From Stutzerimonas degradans (lineage in GTDB: Bacteria > Pseudomonadota > Gammaproteobacteria > Pseudomonadales > Pseudomonadaceae), in contig NZ_JAMOHV010000002.1 of assembly GCF_024448505.1 (NCBI RefSeq), positions 124,001 through 188,000 of the forward strand: a DNA stretch of 64,000 bases. The letters run 5' to 3'. Position 1 is the stretch's first letter. Every line of letters starts with the position of its first letter. A program made the translations under genes and the position numbers. Of this stretch, positions 50,506-60,331 are shown in pieces. The notes under the pieces are model-generated. The model did no database searches and was not told the DNA's origin. It was given only the letters and a program-made list of their open reading frames with translations.

Positions 50506-50600
50506 CAAAAGTCGCTGGAGACAGACGGCAGAACCCGCAGAAGGAGGCACCGGAAGGTACGCACCCGCTCAGCGCCCGCCGCACTGTCAGTGAAATGCGA

Positions 50601-50785
50601 CAGGCCGGTCTCCGGGCTTGCGAGCGGATGCCTGGCATCCCGAAACCGCGCCTTCCCGTGCGTGAGCACAGTGGCCGTTGCGGTTTCTCGACTCGCCTAC
50701 CGTTGCGGGGGCAGCGCCGGAATCGTCATTGCGACTGGACCGGCTTCCCTGTTTCACCTCCTGACCAAGTCAGGGGGCACCTGAA
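50601..50785 (-). promoter_or_regulatory. cobalamin (B12) riboswitch
   Basis: On the minus strand, hallmark pieces occur in the right order: GGTGAAACAGGGAAGCCGGT, then GCGCTGCCCCCGCAACGGTA, GCCACTG, GGGAAGGC, and the B12 box CAAGCCCGGAGACCGGCCTG (50601-50619). The aptamer lies 131 nt before the btuB start. High adenosylcobalamin is expected to shut down btuB and the downstream genes. No strong poly-U terminator is visible between aptamer and btuB, which favours translational control. Confidence 0.95.
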
Positions 50786-50951
50786 GCGAAGCGCAGGTTA
50801 GTCCAAGGCCGGAAGGGACGCAATCGCGAACATGTCGCAGTCAGCAGCAAACTCTGCTTGCAGATTGCCCGCATCGGCCTGGAACGGCGGACGGCGAACG
50901 GCTTCGAATGCCACAATGCCCTCCATTCGCCAGGACCGACGACAGCGCCCC

Positions 50952-58792: not shown

Positions 58793-59884
58793 TCAGTCGC
58801 GCAGCCGCCCGGCGGCCTCGCGCAACAGTTGTGCGGTTCCGCTCCAGCCCAGGCAGCCATCGGTGATCGAGACGCCGTAGCGCAGCTCGCCGGAAAGCGG
58901 CTGGCAGCCGTCGAACAGATGGCTCTCCAGCATCACCCCACGCAGGCTGGTGTCGCCGGCCAGGCGCTGGCTCAGCACGCTGTCGAGCACCGCCGGCTGG
59001 CGCAGCGGGTCCTTGCCGCTGTTGGCATGGCTGCAATCGACCATGATGCGCGGCGCGATGCCCTGCTTTTCCAGTGCGCGGCGAGCGGCGCCGACACTGC
59101 CCGCGTCGTAGTTGGGCGCAGCGTGGCCGCCGCGCAGCACCAGATGGGTGTCCGGATTGCCGCGCGTCTGCAGCAACGCCGGATGGCCGAGATCGTCGAT
59201 GCCGAAGTGCTGATGCGGATGTTCCGCTGAACGCATGGCGTCACAGGCGATGCCCAGGCTGCCTTCGGTGCCGTTCTTGAAGCCCACCGGCAGATCCAGA
59301 CCACTGACCAGTTCGCGGTGAATCTGCGACTCGCTGGTGCGCGCACCGATGGCGGCCCAGCCCAGCAGATCGTCGAAGTAGCCGGCGGCCAGCGGTTGCA
59401 GCAATTCGCTGGCGATCGGCAGGCCGCAGGCCAGGATGTCCAGCATCAACCGACGCGACAGCCGCAGGCCTTCGGCCATGTCGCCGCTACCGTCCAGATG
59501 CGGATCGTAGACCAGCCCTTTCCAGCCGACCGTGGTGCGCGGCTTTTCCACGTAGGTGCGCATCACCAGCAGCAACTGGTCGTCGAGCTCGCGCGCCAGC
59601 TCGGCCAGGCGTTCGGCGTATTCCAGCGCCGCGGCCGGATCGTGCAACGAGCAGGGGCCGACCACCACCAGTAGGCGCGGGTCATGGCCATCGAGGACGG
59701 CGCGGATGGCGTTGCGATCGGTCTGGATACGTGCGGCGAGCGTGTCGCTCAGCGGCAGGCGCTGGCGCAGTAGGGCCGGGCTGGGCAACGGCTGGGCGCT
59801 GCGACGGCGAGGGAGTGGGTCGGCCGCGCAGTCGCCAAGGGCGAGTGGGAGGGCGGCGTTCTGGGCAGTGGCGGATGCATTCAT
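58793..59884 (-). CDS. 3-deoxy-7-phosphoheptulonate (DAHP) synthase, class I (AroF/G/H)
   Basis: The 363-aa enzyme condenses phosphoenolpyruvate with erythrose 4-phosphate, the entry step of aromatic amino acid synthesis. Motifs: LLVVVGPCSLHDP, MRTYVEKPRTTVGWKGL, IGARTSESQIHRELVSG, GFKNGTEGS, and the metal ligands in MVDCSHANSGKD and GVMLESHLFDG. The N-terminal 40 residues contain the allosteric arm, whose effector I cannot name. Two aromatic-rich leader peptides and a terminator precede it. ATG 59882-59884 has AAGGA upstream. Confidence 0.95.
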   Translation of the reverse strand: MNASATAQNAALPLALGDCAADPLPRRRSAQPLPSPALLRQRLPLSDTLAARIQTDRNAIRAVLDGHDPRLLVVVGPCSLHDPAAALEYAERLAELARELDDQLLLVMRTYVEKPRTTVGWKGLVYDPHLDGSGDMAEGLRLSRRLMLDILACGLPIASELLQPLAAGYFDDLLGWAAIGARTSESQIHRELVSGLDLPVGFKNGTEGSLGIACDAMRSAEHPHQHFGIDDLGHPALLQTRGNPDTHLVLRGGHAAPNYDAGSVGAARRALEKQGIAPRIMVDCSHANSGKDPLRQPAVLDSVLSQRLAGDTSLRGVMLESHLFDGCQPLSGELRYGVSITDGCLGWSGTAQLLREAAGRLRD

Positions 59885-59907
59885 GATCGGGCGATTCCTT
59901 CTGCCGG

Positions 59908-59922
59908 CGCGGCAAGGCCGCG
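59908..59922 (-). promoter_or_regulatory. hairpin just upstream of the DAHP synthase ribosome-binding site
   Basis: The minus strand reads CGCGGC-CTT-GCCGCG, a perfect 6-bp stem 6 nt after the second leader peptide stop and a few nt before AGAAGGA of the synthase gene. A ribosome stalled in leader 2 could change this structure. Confidence 0.4.
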
Positions 59923-59928
59923 ACGGCG

Positions 59929-60027
59929 CTAGTCGTGTGTTCGTTCGAGTGGTGTCAGGCAGGCGTCGAAGCGGCTAAATCGCCAGTCGTAGCGGTAATA
60001 ACGATCGGTGCGGTAGTAAGTGGTCAT
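59929..60027 (-). CDS. second aromatic-rich leader peptide before DAHP synthase (32 aa)
   Basis: The peptide MTTYYRTDRYYRYDWRFSRF... has five Tyr, one Trp and two Phe in its first 20 residues. ATG 60025-60027 has GAGG 8 nt upstream, and the stop TAG is 44 nt before the synthase ATG. It lies downstream of the terminator at 60064-60102, so it is transcribed only after read-through. The run of Tyr codons suggests a sensor of charged tyrosyl-tRNA. No second poly-U terminator follows, so any control here is more likely translational. It could instead be a small functional protein. Confidence 0.7.
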   Translation of the reverse strand: MTTYYRTDRYYRYDWRFSRFDACLTPLERTHD

Positions 60028-60063
60028 GCTGCATTCCTCGTGACGTTGGGCCGTTGGCGGCCG

Positions 60064-60102
60064 AAAAAACAAAACCCCCGGTCGGGTGGCCGACCGGGGG
60101 TT
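60064..60102 (-). terminator. Rho-independent terminator (attenuator) in the DAHP synthase leader
   Basis: On the minus strand a perfect 12-bp stem AACCCCCGGTCG / CGACCGGGGGTT with a 6-nt loop is followed by TTGTTTTTTC. It lies 48 nt after the first leader peptide stop and 180 nt before the synthase start, the layout of a classic attenuator. Confidence 0.9.
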
Positions 60103-60136
60103 CGAAAACTGTCTGGTGGCGACCCTGCTTGCTAGG

Positions 60137-60158
60137 GCGCCTGTGGGGTATCAGGCGC
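60137..60158 (-). promoter_or_regulatory. pause-type hairpin spanning the leader 1 stop codon
   Basis: The arms GCGCCTG and CAGGCGC (7 bp perfect, 8-nt loop) overlap the end of leader peptide 1. This is the place of the 1:2 pause hairpin in attenuators. I could not see an equally clear antiterminator; folding is needed. Confidence 0.5.
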
Positions 60159-60279
60159 GCCCGTGGCTAAACCAGTACCCAAAGTAATAACCGGCAGCGA
60201 CGACCAGCCGCGCACGCAGCACCGCGACGCGAGCGGCGGCGGTATGAGCGAGGGCAGAACGGTCGAGGCTGAGCGGCAT
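60151..60279 (-). CDS. aromatic leader peptide 1 of the DAHP synthase attenuator (42 aa)
   Basis: The peptide starts MPLSLDRSALAHTAAARVAV and ends AGYYFGYWFSHGRA, so residues 31-37 hold Tyr-Tyr-Phe-Gly-Tyr-Trp-Phe: six aromatic codons in seven just before the stop. TGGAGA lies 6 nt upstream of ATG 60277-60279, and a promoter lies at 60302-60331. Stalling at these codons when charged tRNA-Tyr, -Phe or -Trp is scarce would be expected to disfavour the terminator 48 nt beyond the stop. Its coding nature is supported by ribosome site, codon run and terminator position together. Confidence 0.85.
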   Translation of the reverse strand: MPLSLDRSALAHTAAARVAVLRARLVVAAGYYFGYWFSHGRA

Positions 60280-60301
60280 GCTTATCTCCAGAAGTGTCCG
60301 A

Positions 60302-60331
60302 ACCATACTCCAGCGTCACGGCAGGTTTCAA
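60302..60331 (-). promoter_or_regulatory. sigma-70 promoter of the DAHP synthase leader, with overlapping palindrome
   Basis: The minus strand reads TTGAAA (60326-60331), 18 bp spacer, TATGGT (60302-60307), so the transcript would begin near 60295, about 15 nt before leader 1. A perfect palindrome GCAGGT-TTCA-ACCTGC (60321-60336) covers the -35 element and could be a repressor site. Confidence 0.65.

Follow-up and report, generated by a model that had tools for sequence, protein, structure and literature searches.

The 64,000-nt stretch of Stutzerimonas degradans DNA that we analysed (the window) carries on its minus strand a gene for a type I 3-deoxy-7-phosphoheptulonate (DAHP) synthase of 363 aa (58793–59884; TIGR00034, 434.9 bits; PF00793). 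The shikimate pathway begins with DAHP synthase, the first enzyme of aromatic amino acid synthesis. The elements upstream of the gene lie on the same strand, beginning with a sigma-70-like, promoter-like site (TTGAAA-18-TATGGT, 60302–60331) recognized by a consensus match alone (9 of 12 consensus positions; one site found versus 0.1 expected in shuffled sequences). This site is 5′ of leader 1, an open reading frame (ORF) of 42 aa (60151–60279) that has a C-terminal end GYYFGYWFSHGRA, a Shine–Dalgarno (SD) sequence GGAG at 60289–60286 and homologues in relatives. From the end of leader 1 to the terminator, the DNA matches the Rfam family P15 (RF00627; 60075–60193; 108.7 bits versus a gathering score of 70). 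The intrinsic terminator has 14 pairs and a T tail (TGTTTTTTCG; 60072–60103). Leader 1 and P15 have the layout of a ribosome-mediated transcription attenuator, an ORF with end-product codons ahead of an intrinsic terminator.

The original prediction placed a second Tyr-rich peptide between this terminator and the synthase gene, and the ORF is there as described: leader 2 (MTTYYRTDRYYRYDWRFSRFDACLTPLERTHD; 59929–60027) has 32 codons, a TAG stop at 59931–59929 and five Tyr codons, at residues 4, 5, 10, 11 and 13. A putative SD sequence, GAGGA (60035–60039), was assigned from the sequence 7 nt 5′ of its ATG. The leader contains a core, TGG CGA TTT (Trp-Arg-Phe; 59977–59985), of which bases 59984–59978 are a candidate anti-ribosome-binding site (anti-RBS). 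In the synthase RBS (59882–59900), the SD sequence AAGGA (59900–59896) and the ATG (59884–59882) are separated by a spacer that holds AATCGCC (59896–59890), complementary to the leader 2 core. A 6-bp hairpin had also been claimed beside the RBS. The perfect stem exists (CGCGGC-CTT-GCCGCG, 59922–59908) within a longer stem (59927–59903) between the leader 2 stop and the synthase SD. The longer stem stops 2 nt short of the SD, and the hairpin itself does not pair with the SD.

We searched the interval from leader 2 to the synthase for a minus-strand terminator-like site and found none; because the terminator is absent, an intrinsic-terminator transcription attenuator does not account for leader 2. 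Scanned against Rfam at gathering scores, the window contains P15 and a cobalamin riboswitch only, and no T-box as a first element. Leader 2 is outside any Rfam coverage, and the P15 model stops at the terminator. The cobalamin riboswitch (50586–50799, minus strand; RF00174, 105.9 bits) is ordinary.

We compared leader 2 across homologous loci in two partly overlapping samples. The first comprised 111 loci: 80 named relatives of the synthase, several of the nearest being Stutzerimonas, loci of the genus found through P15, and the window. P15 occurs in 53 of 56 genomes of the genus. A comparison before synthase homologues, proposed with the original prediction, found an ORF with the core in 106 of the 111 loci (98 unique ORFs); the others are a locus whose contig begins within the gene (L063) and four Salinicola loci. 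These ORFs were picked by the core motif, which does not by itself fix an upstream start. Over the 90 nt that precede the core, the leader frame has a start codon with an SD in 98/98 unique ORFs, and the other two frames have one in 1/98 and 0/98. Between start and core, Tyr makes up 369 of 1,294 residues (28.5%), with at least two Tyr in 97 and at least three in 91 of the 98 ORFs; as an approximate background, the window's long mechanical ORFs (30 of them) have 1.35 Tyr per 100 codons. The family sample covered 158 genomes, 124 of them with a close synthase, and upstream DNA was taken for 80 of these 124. Leader 2 is present in 79 of the 80 and absent from one (L209). The core was found by script in 72, and the seven remaining ORFs have altered versions (G-R-F, C-R-F, W-R-F-G, W-R-Y, W-S-L, W-Q-F and one more degenerate). 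Among residues 2–20, every one of the 79 ORFs has two or more Tyr and four or more aromatic residues. The aromatic codons, whose conservation was at issue, are therefore kept, as a Tyr-rich segment before the Trp-Arg-Phe core.

Substitution patterns differ along the leader. We distinguish a short-leader type (the window, Stutzerimonas and relatives), a long-leader type in Pseudomonas and a Halomonadaceae group. The pN/pS ratio before the core is 0.57 in 48 short-type ORFs and 0.37 in 37 long-type ORFs, and after the core it is 1.0 and 0.77, respectively; pS within WRFS is 0.04 (short type) and 0.00 (long type). In the first sample the invariance of TTT was imposed, as TTT belonged to the search motif, whereas the motif did not specify the third base of CGA, which is A in 97 of 98. 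Under the looser filter of the family sample, 73 of 79 ORFs have CGATTT and two have CGCTTT. Both codons are rare in the long ORFs of the window (CGA, 0.11 of Arg codons; TTT, 0.11 of Phe codons). The core seems, from these alignments, to be constrained as RNA as well as by coding, yet changeable while the aromatic codons stay. Leader 2 is almost certainly a conserved coding leader.

Other sequence similarities occur in and around the leaders. The motif CGAACAC ahead of the leader 2 stop (59947–59941, minus strand) is invariant in all 23 aligned short-type sequences. The leader 1 core (60174–60166, minus strand) has TGGTTTAGC, its counterpart in leader 2 is TGGCGATTTAGC, and the common TGG..TTTA is kept in many relatives. 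We considered leader 2 as a duplicate of leader 1; the window gives z = 3.2, but the mean is 0.69 over 157 unique pairs, of which 30 align at p ≤ 0.05, and a duplication is only weakly supported.

Having both leaders seems to be a trait of this synthase lineage within Pseudomonadaceae, Halomonadaceae and their close relatives. In an order-level sample of 20 stretches, the leader 1 core is found in two: L116 has leader 1 without leader 2, as do the four Salinicola loci, and L117 has both, with W-R-F-N in leader 2. The other 18 stretches, including the paralogue from the genome of the window (L132), have no aromatic leader by script; L126 gave one chance motif match. That paralogue, a second DAHP synthase of the genome (G000:C5:89957-90955; L082, L132), is 51% identical. 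The other TGGCGATTTASC match of the genome, approximately 173 kb away on the same contig, has no leader in the 401 bases inspected. One genome (G005) has two full-score P15 elements (C5:6347-6466 and C15:41343-41462); its listed contamination is 5%, and a duplicate contig is possible. PA2843 was considered as the Pseudomonas aeruginosa counterpart and ruled out as a type II enzyme.

The short-leader type shows complementarity between the core and the synthase RBS. The complementary segment is UGGCG in the short type and GGCGAUU in the window, where folding from leader 2 to the synthase start pairs GGCGAUU with AAUCGCC between the SD and the AUG; over the same span in L001, CUGGCG pairs with CGCCAG. 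For each of 39 unique short-type pairs we took the longest perfect complement, which is CTGGCG at −9 in 14, GACTGGC in four, ATGACTGGCG in three and CTGGCGATT in two. With Watson–Crick pairs, the mean longest helix in these 39 pairs is 6.21 versus 4.63 for shuffled sequences, with only 11 significant alone (p ≤ 0.05). Pairing energies for 89 unique short-type pairs average −13.62 kcal/mol versus −9.70 kcal/mol with a shuffled RBS; 40 reach p ≤ 0.05, 49 are not significant alone, and in 67 the core outscores all other leader windows tested. An earlier scan of 32 short-type pairs ranked the core against upstream windows: its median fractional rank was 0.013, and it fell in the top 5% in 22. Own partners also pair better than swapped partners (−15.24 versus −14.39; 1 of 2,000 permutations as good, in a test that ignores relatedness). 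The helix is nearly invariant and its covariation slight, in an alignment of 23 sequences that leaves out nine loci without a clear anti-RBS, and RNAalifold gives a weak consensus from leader 2 to the AUG (−3.07, 52 sequences). By its predicted pairing, the short type as a group has one element of a translational attenuator, a leader segment that would sequester the downstream RBS. We lean slightly towards a mechanism in which the core RNA of leader 2 acts as the anti-RBS of the synthase in this type. The translational attenuation that had been proposed is consistent with the short type, but the candidate anti-RBS is the leader 2 core and not the hairpin.

We modelled a stalled ribosome by blocking 29 nt around the A-site codon and calculated the cost of opening the synthase RBS. 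In this energy model, the short-type mean falls from 6.64 kcal/mol to 5.40 with a ribosome on the last Tyr codon, 5.19 on Trp and 5.22 on Phe, a gain of approximately 1.2–1.5 kcal/mol, and the RBS is not opened by a ribosome on the first Tyr (6.63) or at the stop (7.17). Blocking the 10-nt core alone gives 5.34, versus a mean of 6.58 for other 10-nt blocks; in only 35 of 89 does no block tried open the RBS more than the core. The last Tyr codon is 6 or 9 nt ahead of the core in 52 of 89 and too far to cover it in 37, in which only Trp and Phe could therefore mask the core directly. Individual loci vary. For example, L006 changes strongly (11.9 to 4.2 kcal/mol) and the window only slightly (8.7 to 7.7 kcal/mol), and in the window a ribosome on the first Tyr opens the RBS further (5.3), which the proposed mechanism does not predict.

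Sequestration of the RBS by the leader core is not supported in long-leader Pseudomonas and Halomonadaceae. The energy for 40 long-type pairs is −10.35 versus −9.35 shuffled (p ≤ 0.05 in three; core the best window in five) and for 13 Halomonadaceae-group pairs −9.23 versus −9.13 (p ≤ 0.05 in one; best in none). Longest helices are significant at p ≤ 0.05 in 7 of 36 long-type and 1 of 13 Halomonadaceae-group pairs, and the median fractional ranks in the earlier scan were 0.269 (long type) and 0.469 (third group). With RBS pairing no better than shuffled in these groups, one mechanism is insufficient for the translational attenuation originally proposed. No single core partner was found for all groups. 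Relative to the AUG, the best long-type partner is the right arm of the hairpin before the SD, and those of the Halomonadaceae group lie approximately 28 nt downstream or 178 nt upstream of the core; two long-type loci (L020 and L066) have complements over the AUG (TGCATGGCG and TTGCATGGCG). Stall modelling has little effect in the long type (5.18 to 5.12, 4.91 and 4.76 for last Tyr, Trp and Phe), and the RBS of the Halomonadaceae group opens for a single modelled position, with the ribosome at the leader stop (7.04 to 3.04). Two Chromohalobacter loci (L062 and L065) have an in-frame GTG that overlaps the leader 2 stop by 4 nt and an in-frame ATG 44 nt downstream, both without an SD by the rule used.

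Other structures may serve in these groups. In 27 of the 50 long-type and Halomonadaceae loci, which the statistics below cover, CGGTCGG..GCCACC..CCGACCG..GGTGGC follows 3′ of the core, two helices in pseudoknot order. Their cells pair in 92.6% of cases versus 88.9% after shuffling, double changes affect 12 cells versus 3.5 (0 of 500 shuffles), the covariation score is 0.161 versus 0.097 (0 of 500) and there are 11 pair types versus 8.6 (36 of 500). When one partner is slid, pairing is at most 54% and the score at most 0.117, but the +3 slide has more double changes (16 cells, 6 pairs). RNAalifold from leader 2 to the AUG gives −22.22 for the long type (37 sequences). Rfam searches of eight relatives, to an E value of 0.1, returned P15 alone, in seven. 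We also considered a −1 frameshift site ahead of the pseudoknot; by eye, the leader frame has no X-XXY-YYZ heptamer.

We consider aromatic sensing that acts after the terminator to be likely. We favour, with modest confidence, a more specific reading: as a further sensor of aromatic amino acids, placed in series with the P15 attenuator, leader 2 would regulate synthase translation. With plenty of charged Tyr, Trp and Phe tRNAs, ribosomes would clear leader 2, the core would fold onto the synthase RBS and translation would be low. With too few of them, a ribosome stalled at the final Tyr codon, or at the codon for Trp or Phe, would cover the core and leave the RBS free. Leader 1 would already have made this decision, at the terminator. 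The sensor of long-leader Pseudomonas and Halomonadaceae may work through other structures, such as the pseudoknot, and several Halomonas may instead rely on close coupling of the leader stop and the gene start.

Coupling could also be the whole function: leader 2 would mainly deliver ribosomes without sensing, and the hairpin would bring the stop beside the SD, where terminating ribosomes reinitiate. The spacing is suited to this, as the stop-to-AUG distance is usually 37–50 nt with an intervening hairpin outside Halomonas and the gap is 7 nt in L072, L075 and L077, and the Halomonadaceae-group RBS is opened only from the leader stop. However, the strong excess of Tyr codons and the core–RBS complementarity of the short type are left unexplained, and in the short type the cost of opening the RBS does not fall with a ribosome at the stop (7.17 versus 6.64), which makes coupling without sensing unlikely. 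The near-zero synonymous change in WRFS, the retention of CGATTT in 73 of 79 family ORFs and the covarying pseudoknot 3′ of the core (27 of 50 loci) could instead point to an arrest or pause element, in which Trp-Arg-Phe, alone or with the pseudoknot, slows ribosomes through the structure of the peptide or of the mRNA, the sensed signal being the stall and not the charging of tRNA. This is less probable again, given that some members keep an aromatic-rich ORF with an altered core (W-S-L, W-Q-F or G-R-F), that the short type lacks the pseudoknot there and that Tyr richness fits codon sensing.

RNase E prefers RN-WUU, which the leader 2 core fits, and translation of leader 2 could shield the mRNA from this enzyme or from Rho, with control by RNA level; such protection would leave the RBS complementarity unexplained, and we regard it as very improbable. 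It is scarcely credible that leader 2 is a chance ORF or a small protein working in trans: against this speak the frame control (98 of 98 versus 1 and 0), the lack of conservation as protein after the core in the short type (pN/pS of 1.0) and the window peptide itself, which matches no Pfam or NCBIfam family.

A broader version of the sensor reading is possible, albeit doubtful: two codon-sensing leaders in series on one gene, one for transcription and one for translation, with the strongly conserved UGG CGA UUU serving both as sensor codons and as a ribosome-gated switch (an anti-RBS in one lineage and the entry to a pseudoknot in another). If true, this would be a new class of dual-purpose leader common to Pseudomonadaceae and Halomonadaceae. 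A conserved serial check, of transcription and then of translation, would make it testable why a gene with an attenuator keeps a second codon sensor, with Salinicola, which has leader 1 only, as a natural comparison. It would recast the P15 family of Rfam as the first half of a two-stage leader, and it would bear on attempts to transfer or rewire the synthase gene for aromatic production in Pseudomonas.

The original prediction was made without knowledge of a described system with this arrangement. In open-licence papers, mostly judged by their listing, we found no description of leader 2 or of tandem codon-sensing leaders before DAHP synthase, but the serial logic has a precedent in rtpA (anti-TRAP) of Bacillus subtilis, in which a Trp T-box is followed by the leader peptide RtpLP, which controls translation (PMC2311275, PMC4027176). 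The rtpA system resembles the reading proposed here in that a transcriptional step comes first and a leader peptide, with codons for the amino acid that is sensed, then governs translation of the gene; it differs in that its first element is a T-box and its leader has three Trp codons, with complete leader translation blocking rtpA translation. It also concerns another gene and phylum. P15, listed in Rfam as a Pseudomonas sRNA and named, in the relevant part of PMC2375449, among the sRNAs that others detected in P. aeruginosa, corresponds to leader 1 and the terminator; its model ends there and does not cover leader 2. In Acholeplasma, uORFC-13-1 similarly lies upstream of a DAHP synthase gene (aroF) beside a terminator (PMC8632094), but it is a single uORF, before the terminator and in another phylum, and the portion of that paper devoted to it has no second leader. 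Two leader peptides (ermBL and ermBL2) precede ermB, which is controlled by translational attenuation (PMC8274638); in the part of that account concerned with the leaders, erythromycin is sensed, both leaders concern translation and amino acid sensing does not feature. A codon-sensing translational leader that acts after a transcriptional step is thus already described, for rtpA. Because this serial control and the two leaders of ermB have been described, the leader 2 arrangement would be a variant of known control.
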